Source: Chthonomonadaceae bacterium
GTDB lineage: Bacteria > Armatimonadota > Chthonomonadetes > Chthonomonadales > Chthonomonadaceae
DNA length: 33,185 nucleotides
Direction of reading: 5' to 3'
Assembly: GCA_027450145.1 (NCBI GenBank)
Contig: DAIDKH010000046.1
Span: 1-33,185, forward strand
In this document: one piece after another, positions 5,989 through 32,546 of the stretch
Numbering within the stretch: position 1 is the stretch's first letter
How the letters are laid out: each line of letters begins with the position of its first letter
Position numbers and translations under genes: made by a program
Notes under the pieces: generated by a model
Seen by the model: the letters and a program-made list of their open reading frames with translations, nothing else
Told to the model about the DNA's origin: nothing
The model's database searches: none

Positions 5989-6035
5989 TATCCTCTTTTT
6001 GACGGATTGTAACCGAATTGTTTCTTTATTATTTC

Positions 6036-15621: not shown

Positions 15622-15632
15622 GGTTTTATCCT

Positions 15633-16166
15633 TCACGCACCAAACCGCGTGTGAGTTTCCAACTCCGGCAGTCTTCCTGCCAGAAGCTCGCTCACTACGT
15701 AGTAGATTGTGCTGGCAGATGGCGGACATCCCGCAACAATGACGTCCACTGGCACGACCTGATGAACCGGCTTCACGGTGTCCAGCAGCGCGGGGACGGC
15801 TCCATGGGGCTTCTGAGGATGCAGCGTGACGTTCTGGTTGTATGCGCGAGTAAACAGTGGCTCGACACCGATAGCATTTCGCATGCCGGGCACATTGCCC
15901 GTTACCGCGCAATCGCCCAACGAAACCAGAATGCGGCTGCGCTCACGTACCTGCAGAATTTTGTGCAGGTCACCTTCGTTGCTTACTGAGCCCTCAACCA
16001 GGGTAACGTCCACGTCCTCGGGAAACTCCTTAAAGTCAACCAGCGGGCTATAGACCAGATCCATCTTCTCTGAGAGCTCAATCAACCGTTCATCAAGATC
16101 TAGAAATGACATATGACAGCCGGAACATCCATCCAGCCATATTGTCGCAACCTTCGCTTTACTCAT
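15633..16166 (-). CDS. hoxY: [NiFe]-hydrogenase small subunit HoxY
   Basis: The protein has 177 residues, short as is typical of HoxY (group 3d), with no Tat signal, so it is cytoplasmic. Four cysteines for the proximal [4Fe-4S] cluster are visible: C14 and C17 ([10 protein letters not shown]), C86 (LGDCAVTGN) and C147 (VAGCPPS). It passes electrons between HoxH and the HoxFU diaphorase module. The start overlaps the hoxU stop by four bases; the stop is 11 bp before hoxH. Confidence 0.94.
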
Positions 16167-16891
16167 TTCGGCACCTCGCGCATAGTCTTAAGGTAGGGCA
16201 GAAACTGACGGCGCTTGGTCATCTCGGCAACCGACACGCCTTTCTCAAATAGTGCGCCGGTCGGGCACACCTGTACGCACTTGCCGCACGAGGTGCAGGT
16301 ATCCGATTCACCCCACGGCTTGCCCAAGTCGGTTATTACTCTGGAGTCCACGCCCCGCCCCATGATGTCCCACGTGTGGGCGCCCTCAATTTCATCGCAG
16401 ACCCTCACGCATCGCGTACACATTACGCAGCGATTGGGGTCCATTACGAATCGTTTATGCGATGCATCTACCTGTAGCTTGGGCGCGAGATAGGGAAGGG
16501 TTACTTCCTGCATACCGCACTCTACTGCCAAATTCTGAAGGTCGCAGTGGCCATTTGAAACGCATACAGAGCAGACGTGATTACGTTCTGCAAAGAGCAT
16601 CTCAACAATCGTTCGCCGGTGAGCACGCAGTCGATCGGTATGTGTAGATACTGTCATACCTTCCGAGACTCGGGTGACACATGCGGGTTGAAGTTTAGGA
16701 CTTCCCTGTATCTCTACAACACAGAGTCTGCAGGCGCCAATATCGCTAAGACCGCTTATGTGGCAAAGCGCTGGTATTCGGATGCCCTGTTCCTCGGCCA
16801 CCTCCATAATCGTCTCATCGGTACGAGCGCTTACCTCCTGCCCATTGATCGTGAGGGTTACTACCTCAGAACTAGTAAGTGTTTCAGGCAT
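16163..16891 (-). CDS. hoxU: Hydrogenase diaphorase iron-sulfur subunit HoxU
   Basis: The protein has 242 residues, homologous to the N-terminal part of NuoG. The [2Fe-2S] ferredoxin fold has C43, C54, C57 and C71. The His-Cys3 cluster region follows (H91 candidate, C107, C110, C116). Two [4Fe-4S] ferredoxin motifs close the protein: C155/158/161/165 and C199/202/205/209. It wires electrons from HoxF to HoxY. The length is as usual for HoxU. The start overlaps the hoxF stop by eight bases. Confidence 0.94.
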
Positions 16892-18539
16892 GGGTAGTTA
16901 CTCCTTTGCGGGCGTTCATGGGGCAGACCCCAGCGGGACATACGCCCTCATTTACGTGCGCGAGGTATTCATCGCGGAAGTATCTTAGAGTGCTGATGAC
17001 AGGATTAGGCGCCGACTGCCCAAGACCGCACAGGCTCGTCTCCCTAACCATTTCGCACAGTTCTTCCAGCTTGGCAAGGTCATTCATGTTCGCCTCACCT
17101 GTAGCGATTCTGGTGAGCAGCTTATACATTTCGGCGGTTCCTACGCGGCAGGGAATGCATTTGCCACAGGACTCACTCATGCAGAACTCCATGAAGAACC
17201 GGGCGACATCCACCATACAGGAAGTTTGATCCATTACGATCATACCGCCGGAACCCATGATAGAACCGACCTCCCGCAGTGACTCATAATCAACTGGCAT
17301 GTCCAGGTACTTTTCGGGTATGCATCCGCCGGATGGCCCACCGGTTTGAACTGCTTTAAATGTGCCGCCGTTAGGTATGCCGCCGCCAATGTCGAACACG
17401 ATCTCGCGCAGAGTAATACCCATGGGTACTTCAATGAGCCCCGTGTTTTTTATGGCGCCGGTAAGACAGAAGACCTTTGTTCCGTGGCTTTTCTCGGTGC
17501 CAATACCCGCATACCATGGCGCTCCACAGCGAATGATTGGTGCAATGCTTCCCAGCGTTTCCACGTTGTTAATAAGTGTGGGACATCCCCACAGCCCTGA
17601 CATGGCGGGATAGGGAGGTCGTGGACGCGGCGTTCCTCGGTTTCCCTGTACAGAAGCGATTAGCGCGGTTTCTTCACCACAGACGAAAGCGCCGGCACCT
17701 ACCCTTAGGTCTATGGTGAAGCTGAAGCTTGTTCCGGCGATGGAACTGCCCAGCAATCCCTGTCGTTCCGCTCTCGATATCGCAGTTTTCAGCCGCTTGA
17801 TTGCACGCGGATATTCAGCTCGCACGTAGATATAGCCGTGGTTCGCTCCCACCGCATAGGCAGCAATGGCCATTCCCTCCAATACCCGATGGGGGTCATC
17901 CTCCATCACAGAGCGGTCCATGAACGCTCCAGGATCGCCCTCGTCACCATTGCACACTACATACTTTCGCGGCCCTGTTGCCTTTGCGACTGTTGACCAT
18001 TTAAGACCTGTGGGATAGCCTGCGCCACCTCGCCCGCGCAGACCGCTCTGCGTTATGGCCGCCACTACGTCTGCCGGAGACATCTCGGCCAGAACGTGCA
18101 ACAATGCTCGGTACCCATCCCGGGCGATATAGCTCTCTATGCGATCGCTCTCAATATATCCTGCGTTCTCTAAAACAACCCTATTCTGGCGTGTAAAGAA
18201 GGGCTGCTTCTCGTTGCACACCGTTATTCCGGCAGCCTCTCCGGTAAGGGAGTCGAGAACGTTATCCGCCAGGTTTGGCGTAACATTCTGGTAGAGCGTG
18301 TCGGTGGCATCTACCTTTACCAGTGGGCCTTCAGCACATAGGCCCAGGCAGCCCACCTCGGTTACGGTTACTTCGCCCTCCAGGCCGCGTTCCTTTGCCC
18401 TTTGGCGCAGCGCCTCGGTTAGCCGATCGCTCCCCGCGGAGGCGCACCCTGTTCCAGTACACACGCGCAGTCTGCATTTCTGCCCAGCGCATTGCTCGCG
18501 TTCGCGTGCGGCAGTGCTCTCAAGTTCGTCAAGGTTCAT
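16884..18539 (-). CDS. hoxF: Hydrogenase diaphorase flavoprotein subunit HoxF
   Basis: The protein has 551 residues. An N-terminal thioredoxin-like [2Fe-2S] domain (C27, C32, C64, C68) precedes the NuoF-like core. [13 protein letters not shown] (169-181) and [14 protein letters not shown] (196-209) bind FMN and [13 protein letters not shown]...LCGLG provides the [4Fe-4S] ligands C458, C461, C464 and C504. It interconverts NAD+/NADH for the hydrogenase. The tail ends with [10 protein letters not shown] (C534, C539), which resembles the beginning of the ferredoxin-like extension of HydB/HndC-type flavoproteins but stops there. The start overlaps hoxE by four bases. An alternative label is the beta subunit of an electron-bifurcating hydrogenase, but the HoxYH partners make HoxF more likely. 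Confidence 0.93.
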
Positions 18540-19051
18540 TGTGCTGCCTCCTCGGTCTCATCCAGGGCGCAGATGGCCTCAACAAGCTGATCAGGGCTGA
18601 GGTGAGGCAGTGTCTGACCATCCAACACCGAAACGGGTGCAAGGCTGCAGGATCCCACGCAGCGTGCGGTAAGCAGCGACAGTTTGTTATTTGGCGTTGT
18701 CTCTCCGCTGCGAATTCCAAAGCGTTTCCGTACGGCTTCCAGGAGGTTGCTGGAGCCCTTAATGTAACAGGCAGTGCCCAGGCATACCACACACGAGTGC
18801 TCGCCTTGTGGCTTTAGTTGAAAGTGGTGATAAAAGGTTGCCACCCCATACACCTTGCCGAGTGGTACGCGCAGGCTGGAGGCAACATAGCGCATACTTG
18901 GTTCGTCAAGGTAGCCAAACGTCTCCTGTATTGAGTGCAGCGTCTCAATTAATCCGTCCGGTGCGTAACCATTTCGCCTCATGGCGGTGTCCACAATTCG
19001 CCAACGTTTATCTGAAGTTGGTGGTGCGGTTTTTGGTAGAAGGTCTCGCAT
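18536..19051 (-). CDS. hoxE: Hydrogenase diaphorase subunit HoxE (NuoE-like)
   Basis: The protein has 171 residues and belongs to the NuoE/HoxE thioredoxin-like [2Fe-2S] family. The four ligands are C90, C95 ([11 protein letters not shown]), C131 and C135 ([10 protein letters not shown]). The N-terminal helical part with [16 protein letters not shown] and [11 protein letters not shown] is conserved. HoxE makes the complex a pentamer (HoxEFUYH) and is implicated in ferredoxin or alternative electron-donor contact. GGGGAG precedes the ATG; it begins 26 bp after the DHOD-like gene. Confidence 0.93.
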
Positions 19052-19077
19052 GTCTTTCTCCCCTCAATGTGCCAGGG

Positions 19078-20094
19078 TTAGCGGCTCCAGCCGGTTGGGT
19101 CCGGCTTAAAGCTGTTTAGTACCCGCATGTAATTCGTGCGCAGGTAGGCATTTGCGTCGTCTACATGCTTTATGTTCATGCTGCCGCGCATCTGGTTGCA
19201 CGAAGTGTATTCGAACTCTGTCATCCACTGATCGATGGCCTCAGCTACTGTGCCGAGCCTTCCGGGCCCGTTTTGCAAAACCTCGCTGGTCATCTGCACG
19301 ACTGTGGCACCTGCCATGATCGCCTTCACGGCATCTATTTGAGTGTGTACTCCGCCACTTACGGCAATATCCGCATCGATTTGCGAGCTGAGGATTGCTG
19401 CCCAGTGGAGTGGCAACCTTAGATCATAGGAGCTTGACAGCACCAATGAAGGCACGGCCTGCAGGGTTTCCAGGTTGAAGTCTGGCTGATAAAACCTGTT
19501 GAATAGAGTGAGGCCCTTAGCCCCGAGTTCCACAAATTTCTGTGCGATATTCGCAGTGGAGGTGAAGTAAGGGCTTATTTTAACTGTAACAGGAATGGTA
19601 ACCTGGTCTGTTGCAAGGGCCACTGTTTCGAGGTAGATTCGCTCGATATCGGCGCCGCTCAGCCCAGGATCTGTAGGTACAAAGTAGATATTAAGTTCCA
19701 ATGCAGCTGCACCGGCAAGTTCCAATTCCCGCGCGTAACGAGCCCAGCCACCAGTCGTTACTCCATTAAGGCTGGCCACTACAGGAATACCCACTGCATT
19801 TGCTGCCTGGCTCACCAGGGTAAGGTAATGTTCGCCACCAAAGTCGTAACCGGGTGCGTCGGGCAGGAAGTTGAGGGCCTCGCCAAATGACTCAGAGCCA
19901 TATGCAAGATAGTGGTCCAGCACGTAGCTGTCGTGAGTAATCTGCTCTTCAAACAGCGAATACATTACAACTGCCGATGCGCCGCCATCCTCCAGTTGTT
20001 TAATACCGTCCAGTGTGCGAGATATTGGGCTTGCGCCCGCAACAACGGGGTGCTTAAGAGTAAGTCCCAACCAATTCGTCTGTAAGTCTGCCAT
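19078..20094 (-). CDS. Dihydroorotate dehydrogenase-like flavoprotein lacking the catalytic SCPN motif
   Basis: The chosen ATG at 20094 has GGAG eight bases upstream and gives 338 residues starting MADLQTNWLGLTLKHPVVAGASP, the usual N-terminus of class 1 DHOD/PreA-like FMN barrels. Conserved FMN contacts are present: VKISPYF (K172), VSGGVHT (245-251) and GATVVQMTSEVL (262-273). Where true class 1 enzymes have N-x-SCPN with the catalytic Cys, this protein has ELNIYFVPTDP (133-143), with no Cys or Ser base. It is thus unlikely to make orotate. Its place between nifJ and hoxE, on the same strand with gaps of 86 and 26 bp, suggests a redox or accessory role linked to PFOR and hydrogenase. The true reaction is unknown. 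Confidence 0.88.
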   Translation of the reverse strand: MADLQTNWLGLTLKHPVVAGASPISRTLDGIKQLEDGGASAVVMYSLFEEQITHDSYVLDHYLAYGSESFGEALNFLPDAPGYDFGGEHYLTLVSQAANAVGIPVVASLNGVTTGGWARYARELELAGAAALELNIYFVPTDPGLSGADIERIYLETVALATDQVTIPVTVKISPYFTSTANIAQKFVELGAKGLTLFNRFYQPDFNLETLQAVPSLVLSSSYDLRLPLHWAAILSSQIDADIAVSGGVHTQIDAVKAIMAGATVVQMTSEVLQNGPGRLGTVAEAIDQWMTEFEYTSCNQMRGSMNIKHVDDANAYLRTNYMRVLNSFKPDPTGWSR

Positions 20095-20180
20095 GATATC
20101 TTCTCCCGTAAAGAGGGCAAAGGTTGTCGGATTTAAAGTGGGTGAGCGGATCACAATTTACCGCGCACCCACAGCGTTCG

Positions 20181-23100
20181 TCACAACTGGGCGCGCGAAG
20201 CGGCCATGCGGCTGTAGTCGGCCCACCTGTGGTTGACGTCTTCCTGCGCATAAGCGAGGAGCTCTTCGGCGTGAGCCGCATCCGTCTGCTGCAGAACCCG
20301 GTAGCGTGTCTCGTTGTAGATGTACTGCTTCAACGGAATAGTGGGAGCCTTACTGTCAAGTGTAAGCGGGTTCTTCTCTTCTGCTTCCAGGCGCGGGTCA
20401 TATCGGTACAAGAGCCAGGCTCCGCTTTCAACAGCAAGTTTCTGCTGATCAAGACCGTGGCTCATATCAATTCCATGGGCAATACAGTGACTGTAGGCAA
20501 TAATGATGGAAGGACCAGGGTAGCTCTCGGCGTCAATAAACGCCTTCATTGTCTGCGAGTCGTTGGCACCCATCGCCACCTGTGCCACGTACACGTTGCC
20601 GTAGGCCATGGCCATACGCCCCAGGTCTTTTTTGGCGGTGCTCTTACCGCTTGCCGCAAACTTGGCAACCGCTGCACGTGCAGTTGACTTGGAGGCCTGG
20701 CCGCCCGTGTTTGAGTAGGTCTCGGTGTCTAGAACCAGGATATTGACGTTCTTGCCCGACGCGAGGACGTGGTCCAGGCCGCCGTAATCTATGTCATAGG
20801 CCCAGCCGTCGCCACCAATAATCCATATCGAGCGCGGTGTAAGATTGTCGGCGACGGCGAGCAGATCCAGCGATTCGGCCGATAGGTTTCCTCCCAGAAC
20901 GCCGCGCAGTGCGGCAACCCGCTCTCGCTGTTGTTCCAGTCCGTGCTCGCCTGTGCAATCCGCGTCTAGCAATCCGTCTGCAAGGTCGTGGCCAATTGTA
21001 TCCCGCAGTCTCTCTACGAGGGTGCGCGCGTAGGTTGTTTGGGCATCCACAGAGAGACGCATACCCAGTCCAAATTCTGCGTTGTCCTCGAACAGTGAGT
21101 TGGACCAGGCGGGGCCGCGACCTACGGCGTTGCGAGTATAAGGGGTGGTTGGCAGGTTGCCACCGTAGATGCTGGAACAGCCAGTGGCGTTTGCGATAAT
21201 GGCCCTGTCCCCATAAAGCTGGCTGACTAGCTTGATGTATGGGGTTTCGCCGCAGCCCGCACATGCGCCGGAGAACTCAAAAAGCGGCTGTAGAAGCTGG
21301 ACGTTCTTAATGGTGTTGAAGTGCATCGAGTCCGTTGACCGCGATTGATCTGGTAGGCTGAGGAAGTAGTCCCAATTGCGAATTCCGTCCTGCTTAATAG
21401 GTGCTTGATCCTGCATGGCCAACGCTTTTCTGCTGGCGTTGGATTTGTCTTTAGCGGGGCATACCTCAACACAAAGCGTGCATCCTGTGCAGTCCTCAAC
21501 GGCCACCTGGAGCGTGTACTTCTGGCCAGATAGCTCCCTCCAGCGTGCCGGTGCTGACTTAAAGCCCTCTGGCGCATCGCCAAGCAAGTCAGCTTCCACA
21601 GATTTTGCGCGTATGACCGCATGTGGGCATACCATAACGCATTTTCCGCATTGTATGCATAGGTCCTCATCCCAAACCGGTATCTCAAGCGCAATATTCC
21701 TCTTCTCCCACTTGGCTGTTCCAGTAGGGAACGTTCCGTCCGCAGGAATTGCGCTTACTGGTATTGTGTCACCTCGACCAGCTATAATCTCCGCAGTGAA
21801 CTTCTGTACAAATTCCGGTGCGTCTTTTCGAACAGTCGGCGGAAGCTCTACACCCCGGGGCTCAGCGGTGGGTATAGTTACCTCGTACAAATTGGCCAAT
21901 GTTGTGTCCACAGCTTCATAGTTTCGCTGTACCACGGCCTCGCCTCGTTTACCGTACGACTTCTTTATAGTCTCTTTTATCTTTGCTATCGCTTCTTCGC
22001 GCGGAAGTACGCCCGATATAGCAAAGAAGCAGGTTTGCATCACCACGTTTATTCGATTGCCCATTCCTACCTGTTTTGCTATTTCGTAAGCATCAATCAC
22101 GAACAACCTGGCGTGAGCAGTTTGGAGCTTATTCTGTACAGTTTTGGGAAGTTGGTTCCATACTTCATCCTTGCCATAGGGGCTGTTAATGAGCATCACG
22201 CCACCATCTGCCAGGGCGTCAGCCACGGGATACCGCTCTATGAATCCAAACTGATGAACACCCACAAAGTTCGCGGTGTGAATTAGGTACGGGCTCTTAA
22301 TAGGGCGAGGACCAAATCGTAGATGAGAGGTGGTTATGGAACCAGACTTTTTGCTGTCATACACAAAATATCCCTGGGCAAAGTTGTCTGTCTCTTCACC
22401 TATGATCTTAATGCTGTTTTTGTTCGCACCTACAGTCCCATCTGCACCCAGCCCCCAGAACATCGCTCGTACGACATCCTGTGGCTCAATATCAAATGAG
22501 TTGTCCACCGTCAGGCTTGAGTGTGAGACATCGTCGGTTATTCCTACCGTGAAATGCGACTTCGGCGACGGTTTCTGCAGCTCATCGAATACCGCTTTAA
22601 CCATCGCTGGCGTGAACTCTTTCGACGAGAGGCCGTATCGACCCCCGATTACTCGCGGCATCGTACTCACGGGCGCATTGCCCTGCGCAATGTACTCACT
22701 AAGTGCTGTTACAACGTCTACATAGAGGGGCTCGCCCGATGCGCCAGGCTCTTTGGTGCGATCGAGCACTGCCAGGGCACGTGTGGTTGGTGGTAAGGCG
22801 GAGGCAAGCGCTGCAGCAGGAAATGGTCGGAACAGCCGAACCTGAAGCACGCCAACGTTGTAGCCACGGGCGTTAAGATAGTCGACAGTTTCACGTACAG
22901 TTTGTGCACCGCTGCCCATCACGGCAATGACCTGTTCGGCTTCCGGTGAGCCGTAGTAATCTACAAGATGGTATTGCCTGCCGGCTACTTCCGAAAATCG
23001 CGTCATCACCTGTTCCACGATTGCGGGAATGGCCTCGTAATAAGGCGAACAGGCTTCACGGGCCTGGAAGAAGATATCCGGGTTCTGTGCAGATCCGCGC

Positions 23101-23744
23101 ATGAAGGGACGATCTGGTGACAATGACCTGCTGCGATGCTGTCGAACCAACTCATCGTCAATCATCGCACGTAACTGTGTTTCGGAAAGCACCTCTACGC
23201 CGTTAACCTCGTGCGATGTGCGAAATCCATCGAATGCGTGAATGAATGGAACTCGGGATCGAAGAGTAGCTGCCTGTGCAATAGCCGCGAAATCGTGAAC
23301 TTCCTGTGGTTCGCTTGAAAACAGGATCGCCCAGCCGGCGCTTCGTGCCGCCATTACATCGCTGTGATCGCCAAATATGGAGAGTGCGTGCGTAGCTATT
23401 GTTCGTGCTGATACATGGAACACCGTGCTTGTTAGTTCGCCAGCGATTTTGTACATATTCGGTATCATGAGCAGAAGGCCCTGGCTGGCCGTAAAGGTTG
23501 TAGTGAGCGATCCAGCTTGAAGAGCGCCGTGCACCGCTCCTGCGGCGCCTCCCTCGCTCTGCATCTCCTGCACAAGAGGTACCTGTCCCCAGAGGTTTTG
23601 CTTTCCCGCTGCCGACCATGCGTCCGCCAGTTCACCCATGGTTGATGAGGGGGTTATAGGATAGATGGTCATGACTTCGTTAATTCTATAAGCGGAAGAG
23701 GCAGCAGCCTCGTTGCCATCCATCATTGTCAGGTTCTTTGCCAT
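20181..23744 (-). CDS. nifJ: Pyruvate:ferredoxin (flavodoxin) oxidoreductase
   Basis: The start ATG 23744 (MAKNLTMMDGNEAAASSAYR) has AAGGA eight bases upstream; the product is 1187 residues, the normal length for a single-chain PFOR. It decarboxylates pyruvate with CoA to acetyl-CoA, CO2 and reduced ferredoxin or flavodoxin. IYPITPSSTMGE opens domain I. Two [4Fe-4S] ferredoxin motifs are C696/699/702/706 and C752/755/758/762. The third cluster uses C828, C831, C856 and C1087, spaced exactly as in Desulfovibrio africanus PFOR (812/815/840/1071). The TPP/Mg motif is GGDGWAYDIDYGGLDHVL, then YSNTGGQ. It is first in the nifJ-hox operon, downstream of a Rex-like operator. Confidence 0.96.
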   Translation of the reverse strand: MAKNLTMMDGNEAAASSAYRINEVMTIYPITPSSTMGELADAWSAAGKQNLWGQVPLVQEMQSEGGAAGAVHGALQAGSLTTTFTASQGLLLMIPNMYKIAGELTSTVFHVSARTIATHALSIFGDHSDVMAARSAGWAILFSSEPQEVHDFAAIAQAATLRSRVPFIHAFDGFRTSHEVNGVEVLSETQLRAMIDDELVRQHRSRSLSPDRPFMRGSAQNPDIFFQAREACSPYYEAIPAIVEQVMTRFSEVAGRQYHLVDYYGSPEAEQVIAVMGSGAQTVRETVDYLNARGYNVGVLQVRLFRPFPAAALASALPPTTRALAVLDRTKEPGASGEPLYVDVVTALSEYIAQGNAPVSTMPRVIGGRYGLSSKEFTPAMVKAVFDELQKPSPKSHFTVGITDDVSHSSLTVDNSFDIEPQDVVRAMFWGLGADGTVGANKNSIKIIGEETDNFAQGYFVYDSKKSGSITTSHLRFGPRPIKSPYLIHTANFVGVHQFGFIERYPVADALADGGVMLINSPYGKDEVWNQLPKTVQNKLQTAHARLFVIDAYEIAKQVGMGNRINVVMQTCFFAISGVLPREEAIAKIKETIKKSYGKRGEAVVQRNYEAVDTTLANLYEVTIPTAEPRGVELPPTVRKDAPEFVQKFTAEIIAGRGDTIPVSAIPADGTFPTGTAKWEKRNIALEIPVWDEDLCIQCGKCVMVCPHAVIRAKSVEADLLGDAPEGFKSAPARWRELSGQKYTLQVAVEDCTGCTLCVEVCPAKDKSNASRKALAMQDQAPIKQDGIRNWDYFLSLPDQSRSTDSMHFNTIKNVQLLQPLFEFSGACAGCGETPYIKLVSQLYGDRAIIANATGCSSIYGGNLPTTPYTRNAVGRGPAWSNSLFEDNAEFGLGMRLSVDAQTTYARTLVERLRDTIGHDLADGLLDADCTGEHGLEQQRERVAALRGVLGGNLSAESLDLLAVADNLTPRSIWIIGGDGWAYDIDYGGLDHVLASGKNVNILVLDTETYSNTGGQASKSTARAAVAKFAASGKSTAKKDLGRMAMAYGNVYVAQVAMGANDSQTMKAFIDAESYPGPSIIIAYSHCIAHGIDMSHGLDQQKLAVESGAWLLYRYDPRLEAEEKNPLTLDSKAPTIPLKQYIYNETRYRVLQQTDAAHAEELLAYAQEDVNHRWADYSRMAASRAQL

Positions 23745-23832
23745 TTCCTGCATCCTTTTCCATGCTCTCCTGCAATGAGGGGAGTCATCCAAACGCTTCT
23801 AACCAGAGTATAGCGATTTACAACCGGCCATA

Positions 23833-23856
23833 CATCCGCACTAAGGAGGATTGTGC
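23833..23856 (-). promoter_or_regulatory. 24-bp element A, shared with the hyp operon
   Basis: On the minus strand: GCACAATCC, two bases (TC), then CTTAGTGCGGATG. The same string with GT in the variable positions is found upstream of hypF (26702-26725). It overlaps the right arm of the Rex-like palindrome and lies 88 bp before the nifJ start. The identity ends at the element's borders. Confidence 0.7.
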
Positions 23857-23868
23857 AAAAATTCACAA
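23851..23868 (-). promoter_or_regulatory. Rex-like operator (NADH/NAD+ sensing)
   Basis: The 18-mer TTGTGAATTTTTGCACAA on the minus strand matches the Rex consensus TTGTGAA-W4-TTCACAA with one mismatch. It sits about 15-33 bp after the start predicted from the TATAAT at 23890-23895, a repression position. A CRP/FNR-family site (TGTGA-N6-TCACA) is a weaker alternative; those activators normally bind upstream of -35. No rex gene is in the window. Confidence 0.7.
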
Positions 23869-23889
23869 TGTTATTTTAAGCTGGCACAA

Positions 23890-23895
23890 ATTATA
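23890..23895 (-). promoter_or_regulatory. -10 element of the nifJ-hox promoter
   Basis: A perfect TATAAT on the minus strand lies 145 bp upstream of nifJ. No TTGACA-like hexamer is found 16-18 bp upstream, so the promoter may need an activator. The predicted start is near 23883. Confidence 0.55.
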
Positions 23896-24414
23896 ACGGT
23901 AAATCATAACGGCCCACGGTGAGCTGTGGTTTGAGTTCGCCGAGGAGCAATCGATATAGAGAGGATCTGCTGCCACAAGGGGATCGTGATGAGCGTAATG
24001 AGTTGGTGCTATCTAGCACGGACGATGGGGAGCGACTCCACTAGTTTGTAATGACTAATACCGTGGCCCTACCGACGGATGGACCCGATAGTCATTGGTA
24101 GATTGGTCTTAGAGATCCTGGCGAAGATGCTCAAAAACCGCACTGGAACCAGACGTGGACTCATCCAAGCCATGTAATTTAACTGATCATTTTGGTGAGC
24201 CGCACGCGCCGATTGCTCCCTCGGTGGCTATTAGAAGCTACCCGGCGGTCGCATACCCTTCTTGGAGGAAGTGACCTCCGGATGCACAGAGGTGTGGTAC
24301 TGCTTTTAATGGCAGCGGAGTGGGAGGATTTGAGAGTAAACCTGCAGAAATAGGCTTCGTGGTCCAAGTGGCCCTATTCTGGTCGGACTGATGGGTAGTC
24401 ACAAAGGGGGCAGT

Positions 24415-25473
24415 ATGCGACATCATTTTTTGCACTCATGCGCGGCAGCAATTCTGTTGTTTCTCGCTGGCGCCACGTATGGCACAGCCCGCGCCGAGGG
24501 AGCGGCCCCGGGTACTTCACTACCAACAACCGTGGAGAACCTTTCGAGCTTACCCCTTCTGGTGGATGGCGCGGTGGGTGGTGACTATACAGTACGTCCG
24601 CCGTACCGAGCGGCGCCAGAGCTTACGCGTGATCCCAATGCGCCAGTTGGCTCGGTATTCCACTTCATAATGCACTCTAGCACGAGCAAATTCTACCCAG
24701 GAATAAGCAAAATGCAACCGGGTAAGGTCGTACCCTATAATCGGCGTGTAACCGTTTACGTTCCAGCTCAGTACAAACCTGGCACACCAGCCCCATTTTT
24801 GATATCGCAGGACAGTATGGCACAGGGTATTCTCCCCACAATTCTTGACAATATGATCTATAAGCACAGACTACCGGTCATGGCGGCGATAATGATAGAT
24901 TCGGGAGGTGGGGATGCACAGGGCAGTGAACGCGGACTGGAGTATGACACCGTTTCCAGCCGGTACGCCGATTTCATTGAACGTGAAGTTCTACCGGAGA
25001 TATCCCGTCGCTACCACATCCTATTTACACGCGATCCCGATGGTCGCCTGGCAATGGGTGGCAGCTCGGGTGGCGCCTGTGCCTTCACCATGGCCTGGTT
25101 TCGACCAAACTACTACCACAGGGTGCTTACTTATTCAGGTACCTACGTCAATCAACAGTCGCCGTTCAACCCCAAGTCCCCCCATGGCGCTTGGGAGTAT
25201 CACGAACACTTCATTTTGCAGAGTCGAGTTCGTCCCATAAGGATCTGGCTGGAGGTTGGACAAAATGATCTAAGGTCGCACGATGATATATCTACGCTCC
25301 ACAATTGGCCGCTTGCAAATGAACGGATGGCCGCAGCGTTGAAATTGCGCGGGTACCGCTACCAGTTTGTTTATGCCCAGGACGCGGGTCACGTGGACTG
25401 GCGCGTAGTGCAGCAGACGCTGCCCGAAGCGTTGGAGTGGGTCTGGCGGGGGTATCGTCCCTCGGGGCGATGA
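24415..25473 (+). CDS. Secreted esterase, alpha/beta hydrolase (enterochelin esterase/esterase-D-like)
   Basis: The start ATG 24415 (MRHHFLHSCAAAILLFLAGATYGTARA) gives a signal peptide and has AGGGGG four to five bases upstream; an ATG at 24391 adds only eight residues. The product has 352 residues. RRVTVYVPAQYKPGTPAPFLISQD is the entry strand of the esterase fold. The nucleophile elbow is MGGSSGGACA (S217), with the acid D285 in EVGQNDLR and H326 in DAGHVDW. Relatives include carbohydrate esterases (feruloyl or acetyl) attached to polysaccharide utilisation and IroE-type esterases. With GH43 and other hydrolases in the window, a carbohydrate-ester role is plausible but unproven. Confidence 0.85.
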   Translation: MRHHFLHSCAAAILLFLAGATYGTARAEGAAPGTSLPTTVENLSSLPLLVDGAVGGDYTVRPPYRAAPELTRDPNAPVGSVFHFIMHSSTSKFYPGISKMQPGKVVPYNRRVTVYVPAQYKPGTPAPFLISQDSMAQGILPTILDNMIYKHRLPVMAAIMIDSGGGDAQGSERGLEYDTVSSRYADFIEREVLPEISRRYHILFTRDPDGRLAMGGSSGGACAFTMAWFRPNYYHRVLTYSGTYVNQQSPFNPKSPHGAWEYHEHFILQSRVRPIRIWLEVGQNDLRSHDDISTLHNWPLANERMAAALKLRGYRYQFVYAQDAGHVDWRVVQQTLPEALEWVWRGYRPSGR

Positions 25474-25814
25474 CGTGACCTTGATGTACTGGTTTACGAC
25501 AGTTCACCACGGAATGCGCAAATAATTGGCACGGTACAGGAGGCGGCTTCCAGCGAATAGGTGTGCCAAAGTACACCCTGTGGTAGAGGGTCAAACTACC
25601 ACGCGATTGCATTCCTACTGTGCACCATAGCCCGGGGCTAATACCTCCTTGACCAGCAGCGCGCCGAAGGTGATCGAACCGCAAGCCACTCCGCCGCTAT
25701 CGGGTCGCTCGACATTGCAATCAGGATCTGCGCGCTGGCGGCATGGTGGTAATTTGTGGCTGATGGATGTTGCAGAAACCTCCGAGGACGCCCCGACCGA
25801 GTTTTTGAACGCCC
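25474..25814. other. Intergenic, no gene recognised
   Basis: No supported gene on either strand. On the minus strand an AAGGAGG near 25644-25650 has no start codon at a workable distance. A weak 5-bp stem (ACCCT/AGGGT, about 25575-25593) lacks a T-tract. Confidence 0.4.
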
Positions 25815-25943
25815 TCATCTTTTACGCAGCGACTTTAATAATACGAATACTAAGCAGTACCAAAGCGTCACGGGTATCGATATTATGAACGTGAACACGA
25901 CAATGAAAAACGTCATGCGCAGGATAAGGTCAATCACTCCCAT
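25815..25943 (-). CDS. Small membrane protein, 42 residues
   Basis: An ATG at 25943 is preceded by AAGGAG with six-base spacing, a near-ideal ribosome binding site. The product (MGVIDLILRMTFFIVVFTFI, then ISIPVTLWYCLVFVLLKSLRKR) is almost entirely hydrophobic with a basic C-terminus, giving one long or two short membrane helices with the tail probably cytoplasmic. It starts 96 bp after the stop of the membrane protein at 26040-26495 on the same strand, so the two may be co-transcribed. No family is recognised. The strong start signal and membrane composition support a real gene. Confidence 0.6.
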   Translation of the reverse strand: MGVIDLILRMTFFIVVFTFIISIPVTLWYCLVFVLLKSLRKR

Positions 25944-26039
25944 TGTAGTCTCCTTCAAATTGGCTATTGCCGCCTCAGTGCGCATAGACTGCGCAGTATC
26001 ATCCTAAATCTTTAGGTTACGTTTGCTTTGGGCTAGCTG

Positions 26040-26495
26040 CTAGGGAATTAGTGGCTGAGGCGTCGCTTCGTTCTGGTTTTGCTGTTGGGTATTACCCTGG
26101 TCCGGCTGTTGGCCAGAGAGGGCGTCCCCTTGTTGGTTTGGAGCTGGCTGCTGTTGTGGTGGTTGCACGGTCCCGGATACCGGTGGGGATATTTGTGAAG
26201 GTGTTCCATAGAGCCCGTTAGCAGGAGGTGCGGTCATGTTACCAGGGAAAGGTGCTTGTACTGTAGTTGGGTTCTGTTTGAATATATCATGCAGTGCACT
26301 CGATCCGGCTTCTGCGGCGGTACCAACCGCCGCACTTGTCGCAACCACGGCGCAACCGCCGAAAAGCAGTGCAAATGAAAAGTAGAGAATAACTAAGCTA
26401 AGCGCGATGATCGCAAGGAATGTGACTGGATTTTGTCTGATCCATGCATCTGGGCTCTTCCTGTAGTTGGGATCCGGTATTCGTGGTGTATTCAT
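26040..26495 (-). CDS. Membrane protein with Pro/Gln-rich tail, function unknown
   Basis: The start ATG 26495 (MNTPRIPDPNYRKSPDAWIRQNP) has GGAAAG nine bases upstream; a TTG at 26657 would extend it. The product has 151 residues. One transmembrane helix (about 24-48, FLAIIALSLVILYFSFALLFGG) is followed by an Ala/Gly-rich segment. The tail from about residue 85 is rich in Pro, Gln and Asn (PPQQQPAPNQQG..., QQQNQNEATPQP). Such tails are usually disordered and extracytoplasmic. No domain is recognised. It is divergent from hypF. Confidence 0.65.
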   Translation of the reverse strand: MNTPRIPDPNYRKSPDAWIRQNPVTFLAIIALSLVILYFSFALLFGGCAVVATSAAVGTAAEAGSSALHDIFKQNPTTVQAPFPGNMTAPPANGLYGTPSQISPPVSGTVQPPQQQPAPNQQGDALSGQQPDQGNTQQQNQNEATPQPLIP

Positions 26496-26701
26496 GCTGG
26501 TGAGCTTTCCAATAGGGCATTCTATTTTGTTTAATCTCCTGACTAAGCCGGATTTTCGTGTTTTGTCGTCCTTTATTTCAACTTCCTTGTCTCCGCCGGG
26601 GGTAAGAGGTGTGAGAGTACATGACCCCAATAGCCAGGGTTTAATTTCGGGCCCCAATTGCCCAAATTAGCCAGTAATTGGCTTAATGAAGGGCATCGTT
26701 G

Positions 26702-26725
26702 GCACAATCCGTCTTAGTGCGGATG
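26702..26725 (+). promoter_or_regulatory. 24-bp element B, shared with the nifJ-hox operon
   Basis: GCACAATCC, two bases (GT), then CTTAGTGCGGATG: 22/24 identical to the element at 23833-23856, and in the sense orientation of hypF, as the other copy is for nifJ. It ends 45 bp before the hypF start and 20 bp upstream of a TACAAT, a position suited to an activator. The Rex-like left arm (TTGTGAA) is not present here. Confidence 0.7.
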
Positions 26726-26745: not shown

Positions 26746-26751
26746 TACAAT
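26746..26751 (+). promoter_or_regulatory. Candidate -10 of the hyp operon
   Basis: TACAAT (5/6 to consensus) lies 20 bp before the hypF ATG. No TTGACA-like -35 is found; element B covers that region. If used, the leader would be very short (about 12 nt) yet still include the GGGAGG ribosome binding site, so a promoter further upstream is also possible. Confidence 0.35.
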
Positions 26752-26770: not shown

Positions 26771-29086
26771 ATGGAAGAAATGAACCAGCCGGCTCAGCTT
26801 TCGCGCCTTTCTATTGATGTACGCGGAGCAGTGCAAGGGGTGGGATTCAGGCCTGCCGTTTACAAACTAGCTGTTGAACTTGGACTTTGTGGAACTGTGC
26901 AGAACAATTCACAGGGCGTTGCGATTGAGGTGGAGGGTGATGCCAGTTCGGTTGATACATTCCTGGTTCGACTGCCGAGAGAGAAGCCGCCGCACGCTAT
27001 CATATTGAGTATTGAGCCGCGGTGGCTTTCTCCTGTTGGGTACAGTGCCTTCGCGATTTTACCTAGTGCCGAGGCAGGAGTTCAAACAGCGCTCGTTCTA
27101 CCAGATCTCGTGACATGTGCAGAGTGCGTTGCAGAGCTGTTTGACCCCGGTAACCGTCGGTACCGCTACCCGTTTCTGAACTGCACCCATTGCGGCCCGC
27201 GCTATACAATTATCAAGAAGATGCCTTATGACAGGGGCAGTACCACTATGGCGCCATTTGTGATGTGTGAAGACTGCAGGGAGGAATACGAAGATCCCAC
27301 AAACAGGCGTTTCCATGCCCAGCCAACGGCGTGCCCAATTTGTGGCCCGCGGGCGCGACTGTGGGATCACGAGGGGCGAGTGCTGGGTGAGGGCGACACG
27401 GCAGTACACGCCGGGGTCGCTGCGATTCTAAGGGGTGAGATAGTCGCTATAAAGGGGATAGGGGGATTTCAACTGCTGGCAGATGCCCGAAGCGATGAGG
27501 CCGTTCAGCGATTACGACAGCGTAAACATCGCGATGAAAAGCCCTTTGCCATCATGGTTGCAAGCCTGGAGGCGGCACGTGATTTGTGCAAAGTATCGTC
27601 GCTGGAGGCGAGACTTCTACAAGGAAGCGAAGGGCCAATCGTACTGCTAGAGCGAAACCCCTCATCTGCAATATCCGCTCTGGTGGCGCCGGCATCTGAT
27701 CGACTGGGGGTAATGCTGCCTACCACACCGTTGCACCACCTTATTTTGCGGGACTCCAATGTACCACTCATTGCAACCAGTGGAAACATCTCAGATGAGC
27801 CTATCTGTATCGACGAGCGTGAGGCCTTGTGGCGGCTTCATGGTGTAGCCGACCTGTTCCTTGTTCATGATAGGCCAATCCTTCGGTATGTAGATGACTC
27901 GGTAACTCAGGTGGTAATGGGCCGTGAAATGGTGCTACGACGATCCCGAGGCTATGCCCCGCTTCCGTTGCCCCTCCCCAACGACGCAGTGTCGGTAATG
28001 GCCGTGGGCGGTCATTTAAAAAACACAGTCACGCTTACTTGCGGCAGTATGGCCTTCATGAGTCAGCACATCGGTGATTTGGAGACACGGGCTGCGCTGG
28101 ATGCCTTCTGCAGGACTACAGATGACATGCGCGAGCTGTTTGATATCGTCCCAGAAGTGACCGCTTGCGATCTGCATCCCGACTACATTTCTACGCGTTC
28201 CGCCGAGGGTATGGGCATTCCGCTGATTCGTGTGCAGCACCATCGTGCGCATGTACTGGCATGCATGGCCGAAAACCGTGTAACAGAGGATGTTCTTGGT
28301 GTGTCGTGGGATGGCACAGGTTATGGAGACGACGGAGAAATATGGGGCGGCGAGTTCTTCGTTGGCTGCGACTACAAAATGCAGCGTATCGCCCATTTTA
28401 GGTCGTTTGCCCTTCCCGGCGGGGATGCTGCAGTGAAAATGCCTGCTAGAACCGCTCTCGGACTGTTATACGAAGTCTTTGGCGATGAGGCAATGGCACA
28501 ACACGACTTACCTCCGTTGCATTGGTTTGCAAAGCCACAACTTGCCCTCGTTCACGCTGCCCTCGAAAAATCGATTAACTGCCCGCGAACCACCAGCGCT
28601 GGGCGGTTGTTCGATGCTGTTGCGGCATTGATCGGCCTGCGTCAGCAGGTAAGTTTTGAGGCTCAGGCGGCGGTTGAGCTAGAGAAGTGCTGTGCAGATG
28701 ACTCCTCAATAGATGGCTACCTCATGCCTCTGCGCAGAGGAGGTCCGCCTTACGTAATCGACTGGGAGCCAATGCTTCGTGCGCTACTTATGGATTACCG
28801 CGCCGCAATCTCATCGTCTATCATAGCAGCCCGGTTTCATAGAGGAATGAGCGATGTAATCCTGCAGGTCGCCAAGAGTGTGGGCATTCGTAAAGTGGTA
28901 CTCTCAGGGGGGTGTTTTGTCAACCGCAAACTGTTGACCAACACGGTTGTTCTACTTCGGCGGGAGGGGTACGAGGTGTTTTGGCCCCAACGAGTACCGC
29001 CAGGCGACGGTGGAATCAGTTTCGGGCAGGCTGTTGCGGCTGCGCAGCAAAGGAGCGACAAAAATGTGCCTGGCAATACCCGGTAA
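26771..29086 (+). CDS. hypF: Carbamoyltransferase HypF
   Basis: The start ATG 26771 (MEEMNQPAQLSRLSIDVRGAV) is seven bases after GGGAGG. The product has 771 residues, full family length. Domains in order: acylphosphatase (GAVQGVGFRP, 19-28), two zinc ribbons with C116/C119/C138/C141 and C166/C169/C188/C191, a YrdC-like domain (~200-380), and a Kae1-like carbamoyltransferase domain with HHRAH and WDGTGYGDDGEIWGGE. It uses carbamoyl phosphate and ATP to carbamoylate the C-terminal Cys of HypE, the first step toward the CN ligands. It is the first gene of hypFCDEAB. Confidence 0.96.
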   Translation: MEEMNQPAQLSRLSIDVRGAVQGVGFRPAVYKLAVELGLCGTVQNNSQGVAIEVEGDASSVDTFLVRLPREKPPHAIILSIEPRWLSPVGYSAFAILPSAEAGVQTALVLPDLVTCAECVAELFDPGNRRYRYPFLNCTHCGPRYTIIKKMPYDRGSTTMAPFVMCEDCREEYEDPTNRRFHAQPTACPICGPRARLWDHEGRVLGEGDTAVHAGVAAILRGEIVAIKGIGGFQLLADARSDEAVQRLRQRKHRDEKPFAIMVASLEAARDLCKVSSLEARLLQGSEGPIVLLERNPSSAISALVAPASDRLGVMLPTTPLHHLILRDSNVPLIATSGNISDEPICIDEREALWRLHGVADLFLVHDRPILRYVDDSVTQVVMGREMVLRRSRGYAPLPLPLPNDAVSVMAVGGHLKNTVTLTCGSMAFMSQHIGDLETRAALDAFCRTTDDMRELFDIVPEVTACDLHPDYISTRSAEGMGIPLIRVQHHRAHVLACMAENRVTEDVLGVSWDGTGYGDDGEIWGGEFFVGCDYKMQRIAHFRSFALPGGDAAVKMPARTALGLLYEVFGDEAMAQHDLPPLHWFAKPQLALVHAALEKSINCPRTTSAGRLFDAVAALIGLRQQVSFEAQAAVELEKCCADDSSIDGYLMPLRRGGPPYVIDWEPMLRALLMDYRAAISSSIIAARFHRGMSDVILQVAKSVGIRKVVLSGGCFVNRKLLTNTVVLLRREGYEVFWPQRVPPGDGGISFGQAVAAAQQRSDKNVPGNTR

Positions 29087-29327
29087 GATCGTGAATATCG
29101 ATGTGCAGAACGTATGGACCCGAAACGGCCTGGTGGACTTCGGCGGTGTAACACGAGACGTTAACCTTACGTGTGTTCCCGAGGCGGCGCCGGGCGATTA
29201 CGTATTGGTGCATGTGGGAATGGCTATAAGCTGTATTGACGCCGAGGAGGCGCAGCAGGTGTTTGCCTACCTTAGGGAGATTGGCGAACTTGCGGACCTG
29301 GAGTTAGGCGAGGAAACAACGCAATGA
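29064..29327 (+). CDS. hypC: Hydrogenase assembly chaperone HypC
   Basis: The protein has 87 residues. [10 protein letters not shown] is the defining N-terminus, with C2 as the Fe/HypD/large-subunit contact. [31 protein letters not shown] is the conserved OB-fold core. It carries the Fe(CN)2CO unit between HypD and HoxH. It overlaps hypF by 23 bp with AAAGGAG upstream and overlaps hypD by four bases. Confidence 0.95.
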
Positions 29328-30424
29328 AATACATGGATGAGTACCGCGACCCGGAAGCAGTTAAGCAGCTCGCCGATGCAATTCACAACACGGTGAAGCG
29401 GCCCTGGACGCTTATGGAGATATGCGGGGGCCAGACGCATGCCATTGTGCGTTTCGGTTTGGATGAACTACTCCCTAAGCATATTACGCTGTTGCACGGG
29501 CCCGGCTGCCCTGTGTGCGTTACTCCGGTAGAGAAGATAGATCGTGCCATCGCTATTTCTAGAATGCCTGGCGTCATCTTCTGTTCGTTTGGCGACATGC
29601 TGCGAGTACCTGGTACCACCGGCGACCTACTGCAGGCGCGCGCCCAAGGTGCTGATGTGCGTGTTGTTTACTCGCCCACGGATGCCGTGCGAATTGCCCA
29701 AGACAATCCGGACAGCCAGGTGGTCTTCTTTGCGGTAGGATTCGAGACCACGGCGCCCGCAAATGCCATGGCAGTCATCACTGCGTTTCGTCAGGAGGTT
29801 CCCAACTTTTCCATGTTGGTGTCGCATGTGCTGGTTCCGCCGGCAATGGAGGCAATCCTTTCCTCACCACAGTGCCGCGTGCAAGGATTTTTGGCTGCGG
29901 GGCATGTGTGCTCCATCATGGGCACCAGCGAGTATCTCCCTATTGCCCAGCGCTATCGCATTCCGGTTGTGGTCACAGGCTTTGAACCTATTGACTTGCT
30001 GCATGGTATATACCTGTGCGTTAAGCAACTGGAAGAAGGTCGCTTCGAGGTTGAGAATGCCTATGTGCGCGCGGTAAAGGACGACGGAAATGTTCCTGCG
30101 CAGCAGCTGGTAGCCGATGTGTTTGAGGTGACAACACGCACCTGGCGCGGGGTGGGCGACATCCCGTTCAGCGGGCTGCACCTGCGGCCGGAATTTCGAC
30201 AATTTGATGCCGAGGTGAGGTTCGATGTGGCGGATACGGTTGCCAAGGAGGATGCAGAGTGCCGCAGCGGACTGGTGCTGCAGGGGTTGTTAAACCCTAC
30301 CGATTGCCCCGCATTTGGCAAGCGTTGCACACCAGAGCATCCCCTGGGGGCTACGATGGTCTCAAGCGAGGGCGCATGCGCTGCTTATTATCGTTACAGG
30401 CGTTATGCGCGGGAGGTCAGGTAA
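29324..30424 (+). CDS. hypD: Fe(CN)2CO scaffold protein HypD
   Basis: The protein has 366 residues. CGGQTHA (C34) and [11 protein letters not shown] (C62, C65) are the conserved thiols that build the cofactor with Hyp[23 protein letters not shown] and TGFEPIDLL are family blocks. The C-terminal cysteines (C in [23 protein letters not shown]) match the [4Fe-4S] site. It overlaps hypC (ATGA) and abuts hypE with no gap. Confidence 0.95.
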
Positions 30425-31483
30425 ATGAATACAGAGAACCTTCAGGCGTGCCCCGTGCCTTCGTTCGCACCAGATGCCGTAGTGCAGATGGCGCACGGAG
30501 GCGGCGGACGGAAGATGCAGCGCCTCATCGACGAGGTGTTTACCAGCACGTGGGCAAATCCTACCCTGCTTACGCGCCACGATGCCGCTCTGCTCTCGCT
30601 CCCCACAGACTGCGAACGCATCGCGATGACTACGGACTCGTATGTCGTGCATCCGCTATTTTTTGCTGGCGGAAGTATTGCCAGCCTGGCGGTGAATGGT
30701 ACGGTAAACGATCTCGCAATGGGTGGCGCACGTCCGCTCTGGCTGAGCGTGGGCCTCATATTGGAGGAGGGTACCGAGATCAGCACGCTGCACCGTATCG
30801 CTGCCGAGATGCGTGAATGCGCCGATCGTGCGGGAGTTGCGATTGTTACGGGTGACACTAAGGTGGTGGAGCGAGGACATGGCGACACAGTATTCGTTAA
30901 CACAACAGGTGTTGGGGTGCTGGAGCATTCCAGTGTCATTGGGCCGTCGATGGTGCAGCCAGGTGACGCCGTGATCGTATCAGGTGACCTGGGTAGGCAC
31001 GGCATAGCCATCATGGCGGCGCGTGAGGGCTTGGTGGATGCATGCGATGTGGTGAGCGACTGTGCCCCCGTTGCGGCGCCAGTTTTGGACCTGCTGGCCG
31101 CTGGTTTGGATATTCACTGCATGCGTGATCTTACTCGTGGAGGATTGGCAAGCGCCACGGTTGAGATTGCAGAGCAGGCGGGTGTAAATATCCAGTTAGA
31201 GGAGTCAAAATTGCAGGTTACAGAGGCCGTGCGTGCAACCTGTGAGTTGCTGGGCTTCGATCCGTTGTTTGTTGCGAATGAGGGAAGATTCCTGGTAATT
31301 CTACCGGCAGCTCAGGCTAACGCTGCACAACACATTCTGTCTACCCATCACGTTAGCATGGGAGCATCCATTGCTGGAACTGTCACCGATTCCGGCCCGG
31401 GGCGTGTTACTTTAATGGGCCGGTTCGGTACCGAGCGAGTGGTGGATATGCTAAGCGGTGAGCAATTACCGCGGATATGCTGA
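30425..31483 (+). CDS. hypE: Thiocarbamate dehydratase HypE
   Basis: The protein has 352 residues of the AIR-synthase/SelD-like fold. AHGGGGRKMQRLI near the N-terminus and TTDSYVVHPLFFAGGSIA are conserved. The C-terminus is PRIC with C352 as the residue that is carbamoylated by HypF and dehydrated with ATP to thiocyanate. The motif is intact. Its start immediately follows the hypD stop. Confidence 0.95.
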   Translation: MNTENLQACPVPSFAPDAVVQMAHGGGGRKMQRLIDEVFTSTWANPTLLTRHDAALLSLPTDCERIAMTTDSYVVHPLFFAGGSIASLAVNGTVNDLAMGGARPLWLSVGLILEEGTEISTLHRIAAEMRECADRAGVAIVTGDTKVVERGHGDTVFVNTTGVGVLEHSSVIGPSMVQPGDAVIVSGDLGRHGIAIMAAREGLVDACDVVSDCAPVAAPVLDLLAAGLDIHCMRDLTRGGLASATVEIAEQAGVNIQLEESKLQVTEAVRATCELLGFDPLFVANEGRFLVILPAAQANAAQHILSTHHVSMGASIAGTVTDSGPGRVTLMGRFGTERVVDMLSGEQLPRIC

Positions 31484-31498
31484 ACGGAGTGTCTGACG

Positions 31499-31870
31499 AT
31501 GCATGAGGCCTCGATAGTGGAGGAGATGCTGGAAATTGCTGATCGAGAAGTGATATTACAGGGTGCGCAACGCATCAATCGCATCTCACTGCAGGTAGGT
31601 GTTCTTTCCGGCGTCGTTCCGGAGGCGCTGCAGTTTGCCTTTGGCAGTCTCACCAAGGGGACCCTGGCGGAAGGAGCGGTCCTCGACATCGTGCGGGTAC
31701 CCCTTACGCTACGGTGCGATAGGTGTGAGGGGCTTTGGGATGGAGAACATCCGGGGGATCTCTGCCCTGTTTGCGGTGCAGAGCTACCGTCAATTGTGGC
31801 CGGCCAGGAGTTAAGGCTGCTGGAACTGGACCTGGAACTTGTGGAGACCGCAGATGAGCGCAACACATAA
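31499..31870 (+). CDS. hypA: Nickel chaperone HypA
   Basis: The protein has 123 residues. MHEASIVEEML gives the N-terminal nickel ligand H2 (with E3). The zinc site is C73/C76 and C89/C92 (RCDRC, CPVC). It delivers nickel to the large subunit with HypB. Its end overlaps hypB by 17 bp. Confidence 0.94.
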   Translation: MHEASIVEEMLEIADREVILQGAQRINRISLQVGVLSGVVPEALQFAFGSLTKGTLAEGAVLDIVRVPLTLRCDRCEGLWDGEHPGDLCPVCGAELPSIVAGQELRLLELDLELVETADERNT

Positions 31871-32546
31871 AGTCGTGGTGATGGGTGACACCATCCTTGG
31901 GAGAAACGATAGGCAGGCTAGCGAGACTAGGCGCAAACTAACCGAGGCCGGCATTTTCTCTATTAACCTTCTCTCCTCACCAGGAGCGGGTAAAACCGCG
32001 TTGTTGGAGCGCACGCTAGGCGATTGCGCGGATAAATGGGCAATGGCAGTGGTGGTGGGCGATCTGCAGACGGACAATGATGCAGTTCGATTAAGCAGGT
32101 TTGGCGTACCCGTTGTACAGGTAGTGACCGGAGAAGTATGTCATCTCGATGCGCAGATGACGGCAACAGGCATAGATGAGGTGGGCACGGATGACCTGGA
32201 CATCCTCTTCATCGAAAACGTTGGTAACCTTGTGTGCCCTGCCGCGTTTGACCTGGGGGAGGCCTCACGGGTCGCGCTTCTGTCTGTAACCGAAGGCGAG
32301 GACAAGCCCCTAAAATACCCTTCAGTATTTGCGACCGCTTCCCTGGTAGCAATCACGAAAGTCGATATTGCGAACACTCTTGGTGTAGATATGCCTCTCA
32401 TGCGTGACAACATCCGCAAGGCGGCGCCGCGGGCAGAAATACTCGAGCTCTCCTCTCGTACTGGAGAGGGAATGCCCAACTGGTATGCCTGGTTGAATAC
32501 CAATGTGCAGCACGCCCTGCGTAACCTGCAGCTTATTGTCCGGTAG
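31854..32546 (+). CDS. hypB: Nickel-insertion GTPase HypB
   Basis: The start ATG 31854 lies seven bases after GGAG and gives 230 residues; an ATG at 31839 would add five. The SIMIBI GTPase has Walker A SSPGAGKT (41-48), the metal pair C96-H97 in GEVCHLDA, ENVGNLVCP with C128, and TKVD (168-171) in place of NKxD. It lacks the His-rich N-terminus and the CxxCGC motif of E. coli HypB, so it should not store nickel. It is last of the hyp operon. No clear intrinsic terminator follows. Confidence 0.93.
   Translation: MSATHKVVVMGDTILGRNDRQASETRRKLTEAGIFSINLLSSPGAGKTALLERTLGDCADKWAMAVVVGDLQTDNDAVRLSRFGVPVVQVVTGEVCHLDAQMTATGIDEVGTDDLDILFIENVGNLVCPAAFDLGEASRVALLSVTEGEDKPLKYPSVFATASLVAITKVDIANTLGVDMPLMRDNIRKAAPRAEILELSSRTGEGMPNWYAWLNTNVQHALRNLQLIVR

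Follow-up and report, generated by a model that had tools for sequence, protein, structure and literature searches.

The window, by which we mean the whole stretch of 33,185 nucleotides that was analysed, carries a hydrogenase operon on the minus strand, hydrogenase maturation genes on the plus strand, and the following short elements and neighbouring genes.

4618..5907, minus strand: FAD/NAD-linked oxidoreductase (Pyr_redox_2; resembles sulfide:quinone reductase at a score under the curated cut-off), also predicted as a target
5963..6011, minus strand: third, weaker predicted site with its -10 box, TACAATCCGTC-N5-GAGGATA-N20-TATAAT, before 4618-5907 and conserved in G011 and G012
14197..20154, minus strand: DHOD-like protein, HoxE, NuoF/HoxF-like protein, HoxU, and small and large [NiFe] hydrogenase subunits (profile matches)
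20181..23744, minus strand: NifJ, pyruvate:ferredoxin oxidoreductase, first gene of the hydrogenase operon (NCBIfam TIGR02176, 1789 bits)
23807..23812, minus strand: predicted -10 box TATACT, 20 nt after the nifJ element (spacing test)
23833..23856, minus strand: predicted operator before nifJ-hox (PWM score 33.7, 0/200 shuffles)
23851..23868, minus strand: Rex-operator-like TTGTGAATTTTTGCACAA, which overlaps the nifJ element at its left end (leader alignment)
26702..26725, plus strand: predicted operator before hypF (PWM score 35.8, 0/200 shuffles)
26746..26751, plus strand: predicted -10 box TACAAT, 20 nt after the hypF element (spacing test)
26771..29086, plus strand: HypF (TIGR00143, 785 bits)
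29324..32546, plus strand: HypD (TIGR00075), HypE (TIGR02124), a small ORF, and a CobW/HypB/UreG-family GTPase (PF02492)

The second gene of the nifJ-hox operon codes for a dihydroorotate-dehydrogenase-like (DHOD-like) protein, and the best models for the small and large [NiFe] subunits are VhuG and VhuA, with scores below the curated cut-offs. Within the hyp operon, the GTPase is probably HypB, and the small ORF stands where HypA would be expected and is a putative HypA.

An earlier note on this DNA had drawn attention to a 24-bp element shared by the leaders of these two operons. A recount bears out both copies, their identity at 22/24 positions, and their placement in the sense direction of each operon: the minus-strand copy before nifJ-hox reads GCACAATCC-TC-CTTAGTGCGGATG, and the plus-strand copy before hypF reads GCACAATCC-GT-CTTAGTGCGGATG. 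The note had put the odds of so good a chance pair in 33 kb at about 1 in 100, and this estimate is correct because 0.011 pairs as good as 22/24 are expected anywhere in a random window of the same composition. We agree that the location at both leaders lowers chance further than this figure. Shuffled windows searched at three or fewer mismatches gave no matches to the element, and the flanks of the two copies differ in the leader alignment, as they should if no duplicated segment is involved.

When the genome (4.14 Mb in 168 contigs) was searched with up to three mismatches, the element was found in exactly two places, which are the nifJ and hypF leaders. In two genomes of the same genus, G011 and G012, it is retained at the unchanged leaders and at the unchanged distance to the start codon, with upstream flanks that have diverged. 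The hypF-leader copy of G011 is identical and its nifJ-leader copy carries two mismatches; the nifJ-leader copy of G012 is identical. Close relatives thus keep the element and the genome holds no random scatter of it, so that neither outcome named in the earlier note as fatal to its proposal was seen. Matches in more distant genomes were set aside as chance, one at three mismatches in G004 because it falls inside an ORF, and those in G001 and G003 because they look like the coding sequence of a repeat protein (ALKADGTVWAWGYN-like).

GENERALISING the element through an alignment of the nifJ leaders of other genera yielded diverged forms of the type CACAAT...GGATG, each followed by a -10-like hexamer at a constant distance. 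The general form from relatives is (C/T)ACAATCCGCC-N5-GCGGATG, which includes the dyad ATCCGC-N6-GCGGAT. In the consensus, AATCCGCC-N5-GCGGATG, the dyad is extended leftwards by CACA. With the -10 box included, the pattern gives 38 matches in 17 family genomes versus 1 for a reversed control, and a refined pattern gives 69 matches in 31 order genomes versus 2 for the control. To avoid circularity, we also searched eight genomes for the dyad alone, with no -10 box required. The hexamer TANNMT stands exactly 20 or 21 nt after GCGGATG in 45 of the 149 dyad matches, against 2.6 expected from shuffles and at most 8 at any single offset. Across these 45 sites GGATG is strongly conserved. Of the two interleaved complements that the earlier note had described, ATCC/GGAT stands as the conserved dyad, whereas GCAC/GTGC is incidental and its GTGC word is not conserved.

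This geometry points to a promoter. The module has no recognisable -35 box, and by the position of the -10 box the centre of the dyad lies near -42.5. With a -10 box 20-21 nt downstream of it, the element takes the place of the -35 box; as predicted from these positions, it is the upstream half of a regulated promoter and is placed like a class-II activator site. At hypF, only about 13 nt separate the inferred start from the ATG, which we counted against the explanation that we prefer. Two known promoter and operator types were tried and rejected for the pair of leaders. By inspection, a sigma-54 promoter does not fit, in that the TGGCAC start at hypF lacks a TTGC partner and nifJ lacks TGG. 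As for Rex as the shared regulator, the near match to TTGTGA-N6-TCACAA occurs in the genus only at nifJ, where TTGTGAATTTTTGCACAA is conserved, and neither hypF nor the generalised motif shows it.

As an independent test, we built a position weight matrix (PWM) from 38 sites after removal of all nifJ and hypF sites. This matrix finds a match before nifJ in 7/7 tested site-carrying family genomes (G000, which is the genome of the window, G011, G012, G008, G006, G005 and G013) and before hypF in G000, G011 and G008, with 0/200 shuffles matching in each case. No site was found in the nifJ leaders of G022-G027 and G018-G020, and the nifJ leader of G021 also lacks the element by this matrix, although the regulator described below is 77% identical there. 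The order nifJ-DHOD-hoxE-hoxF is kept in G008. In G005 and G006, the element precedes nifJ, yet the region read shows no hox after nifJ-DHOD, and G013 has the nifJ site although no hypF match was found in its genome. Because of these three genomes, we conclude that the site belongs to the regulation of nifJ with or without a hydrogenase.

A candidate for the protein that reads the element emerged from the best site in the genome (6876), which lies 10 bp after a response regulator gene (G000:C73:6195-6866). The predicted product has the REC and GerE domains (Pfam PF00072 and PF00196) of the NarL/FixJ family, as do DosRS-type regulators, and the gene directly before it codes for a kinase with GAF, HisKA_3 and HATPase domains that is related to DosS and DosT. 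The nearest solved structures to the kinase GAF domain are those of the DosT/DevS GAF domains (E 3e-30). In DosS, His149 is the proximal heme residue and Tyr171 the distal one (PMC4082495). Alignment shows that the equivalents of both are conserved in the regulator-adjacent kinases, as the histidine of an HP.M motif and the tyrosine of an LYL motif, and that they stand 22 residues apart, as in DosS. With these residues, the kinase would bind heme and is a putative heme sensor. The regulator itself is not closest to DevR among its characterised relatives: against solved structures it scores 142 bits with NarL, 141 with VraR and 135 with DevR, and NarL is the closest full-length structure (E 1.5e-40). 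The prediction that the system works like DosRS is well supported, but with NarL and VraR marginally closer than DevR the regulator is not established as an ortholog of DosR.

In six genomes (G000, G011, G008, G006, G040 and G053), a site is found no more than about 100 bp from the regulator gene. We also examined co-occurrence in 291 genomes of the phylum, taking sites at two or fewer mismatches and the regulator at E <= 1e-60. Sites occur in 18/291 genomes, the regulator in 30/291, and both in 15 (Fisher p = 2e-14, a value that is optimistic because the genomes are related and hence not independent). Three site-bearing genomes yielded no regulator. One is G012, which is 74% complete, belongs to the same genus and has clear sites; the others, G176 and G236, have single weak matches in the phylum scan that look like chance. 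Conversely, 15 of the 30 regulator-bearing genomes have no site at two or fewer mismatches, and clear sites are lacking in G016 and G018-G020 even though their regulators are 65-66% identical with almost the same recognition helix.

These exceptions leave some room for a different transcription factor, either another LuxR-type protein or one of the CRP/FNR type, that would read the operator while the DosR-like gene was merely a member of the regulon near a site. The broad response-regulator family is abundant, with 3-43 matches per order genome, and a dyad with N6 spacing at a class-II-like position would suit a CRP-type dimer too. We nevertheless consider this alternative unlikely. The co-occurrence is with one specific ortholog group, the site adjoins the regulator gene repeatedly, and the content of the regulon is typical of DosR. 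Moreover, the element presumably does not match the textbook CRP or FNR box, which we counted against a factor of that type.

The predicted regulon rests on approximate assignments: for each site, we took the longest ORF with a start no more than 420 nt away. Universal stress proteins (USPs) follow sites in at least six genomes. In the pooled genomes, sites also precede genes for an Acg-family (Rv3131-like) FMN oxidoreductase (nitroreductase), Hsp20, 6-phosphofructokinase, cytochrome b/c, 2-oxoacid:ferredoxin oxidoreductase, corrinoid proteins, acetyl-CoA hydrolase, BON and beta-CASP proteins, hemerythrins, phosphoketolase, acetate kinase and cytochrome bd (CydA, CydAB). The predicted targets in the genome of the window are nifJ-hox, hypF and the FAD oxidoreductase (site 5963-6011), together with two USP loci, on contigs C73 and C51, an operon for corrinoid proteins on C5 and, on C31, a gene for cytochrome b. 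As predicted by site in the pooled genomes, the combination of USPs, Hsp20, Acg nitroreductase, phosphofructokinase and redox proteins is that of a DosRS/DevRS-type regulon, and the list is typical of the DosR dormancy/hypoxia regulon.

This list bears directly on the proposal of the earlier note that the element serves a regulator common to the synthesis and maturation of hydrogenase. The first half of that proposal holds: conservation in close relatives, the fixed promoter position and the non-random distribution in the genome strongly support the prediction that the element is the site of a common regulator. The second half, a regulator dedicated to hydrogenase, is already contradicted and in our judgement very improbable. 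It gains from the fact that at three or fewer mismatches only the two hydrogenase-related leaders match in this genome, but the module also precedes stress, respiratory and fermentative genes, including those for USPs, CydAB, cytochrome b and Hsp20, and the nifJ sites with no hox after them in the stretch that was read, like G013 with no hypF match, speak against it as well. Equally doubtful is the idea that the upstream block is the -35 region of an alternative sigma factor rather than an activator site. The fixed spacing to the -10 box and the strong conservation of GGATG would fit such a promoter, but the -10 box is sigma-70-like, the spacing varies between 20 and 21 nt, and a conserved block of about 20 bp with a dyad, reaching to about -56, is too long for a -35 element. 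Weakest of all, and hardly credible, are an RNA leader element acting by pairing or as a riboswitch, to which the short complementary words had lent some appeal in the earlier note, and chance or duplication: a -10 box follows both copies and the element, counted from the inferred start, spans roughly -56 to -33 and hence is not expected in the transcript, one of its words (GTGC) is not conserved, and the pair statistics and differing flanks given above count against the other two.

Several known systems resemble the predicted one. DosS/DosT-DosR (DevS-DevR) of Mycobacterium tuberculosis likewise places a NarL-family regulator beside a GAF/HisKA_3 kinase, with DosT/DevS the best match to the GAF domain here, and its targets also include USPs, an Acg-type oxidoreductase, Hsp20 and phosphofructokinase. 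Its Dev box is of the GGGAC..GTCCC type, from which the operator here differs. The kinases described here have one recognisable GAF domain and sometimes an N-terminal PAS domain, unlike DosS/DosT; the host phylum, probably Armatimonadota, differs as well, and the predicted targets extend to corrinoid proteins and to the PFOR-hydrogenase and hypF operons. The position of the element, at a fixed 20-21 nt from the -10 box, resembles that of the DevR boxes in M. tuberculosis, which overlap the -35 region of their promoters (PMC3029386). In Streptomyces coelicolor, the DosR-type system OsdK-OsdR has USPs, a nitroreductase and alcohol dehydrogenase clustered around the regulator, and OsdR, which binds AGGGCCGATCGGCCCT, controls USP and nitroreductase genes in the vicinity of its own (PMC5069765). 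Its architecture and USP/nitroreductase targets are alike, whereas the consensus here is neither a Dev box nor an OsdR box. The [NiFe] hydrogenase cluster Hyd3 of Mycobacterium smegmatis (MSMEG_3931-3927) lies beside a DosR-type gene cluster and is induced at low oxygen (PMC2799521); there the link is induction and neighbourhood, whereas here it is a shared operator, read from sequence. The nitrate-responsive regulators NarL and NarP belong to the same protein family as the regulator, but the kinase here is a GAF protein with no recognised nitrate sensor domain. We also take the operator to be distinct from the NarL heptamer. A search of a literature collection for DosR together with Armatimonadetes returned no relevant paper.

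Taken together, these observations make it highly probable that a DosR-like (NarL/FixJ-family) response regulator reads the element as its operator, and that the element marks the regulated promoters of a low-oxygen/stress regulon. According to this model, low O2 (or NO/CO) would be sensed by the cytoplasmic GAF-heme kinase encoded beside the regulator, and the kinase would then phosphorylate the regulator. A dimer of the regulator would bind the dyad over the -35 region and recruit RNA polymerase, and thereby turn on all targets together, among them nifJ-hox for fermentative H2 metabolism and the hyp maturation operon. With less assurance, although we still lean towards it, we propose that this is a DosRS-type heme-sensing dormancy/low-oxygen regulon outside Actinobacteria with an operator code of its own, and that it exerts direct control over a fermentative, PFOR-linked [NiFe] hydrogenase and its maturation genes, such that H2 metabolism would be a core output of the dormancy switch.

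An anonymous 24-bp repeat has thereby been developed into a predicted regulon: its operator and promoter geometry are defined, a regulator and a sensor are proposed as candidates, and its predicted targets are listed. DosR-type switches are known mainly from mycobacteria and streptomycetes. If our interpretation is true, such a low-oxygen/dormancy switch is also used by a distant and little-studied bacterial group, where it would govern hydrogen metabolism and pyruvate oxidation besides the familiar stress proteins, and the operator would offer a handle for predicting low-oxygen genes in these mostly uncultured bacteria.

The window's hydrogenase genes (14197-19051) join HoxE/HoxF/HoxU-like diaphorase subunits with catalytic subunits whose best-scoring models are VhuG/VhuA (F420-non-reducing hydrogenase). 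They are preceded by nifJ and a dihydroorotate-dehydrogenase-like gene:

Window 19078-20154, and L100-L129: protein of the PRK07565 family, directly after nifJ.

This gene lies immediately 3' of nifJ in all relatives examined, whether or not hydrogenase genes are present.

Two proteins are encoded downstream of predicted operators elsewhere:

L193:5961-6197, L196:10436-10684 and L247:7602-7880: small conserved protein of about 80-90 aa, motif ..CDG.NC......VAL..
L265:4578-5714, L261 near 2100 and L277:1578-2690: membrane protein, N-terminus DPIP.PAP.WLMK..S.VTLALHFSAVM

The first is encoded between the operator and a universal stress protein gene in three genera, and its copy in the window's own genome has no Pfam match. 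The second, likewise without a Pfam match, follows the operator in three other family genomes (G005, G006 and G013).

The reading frame of the GAF kinase (GAF-HisKA_3-HATPase) in the window's genome and in same-genus genome G011 runs upstream into conserved LVLDTANRVALDILASRTGVEAL (L193, approximately 4000-4168; L256). No ATG, GTG or TTG precedes this extension in either genome, and thus an unusual start codon, or a problem in the sequence, is possible.

A further operator-like sequence overlaps the predicted operator ahead of nifJ-hox:

Window 23851-23868, minus strand: TTGTGAATTTTTGCACAA, one base from the Rex consensus, overlapping the nifJ element at its left end.

This sequence resembles the operator of the redox repressor Rex. 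Alignment of nifJ leaders shows that it is conserved in same-genus genomes G011 and G012, in the form TTGTGA-N6-GCACAA, enclosed in a longer conserved block, TTAAAATAACATTGTGA. nifJ-hox may be subject to a second regulatory layer, exerted by a repressor through this Rex-like site.
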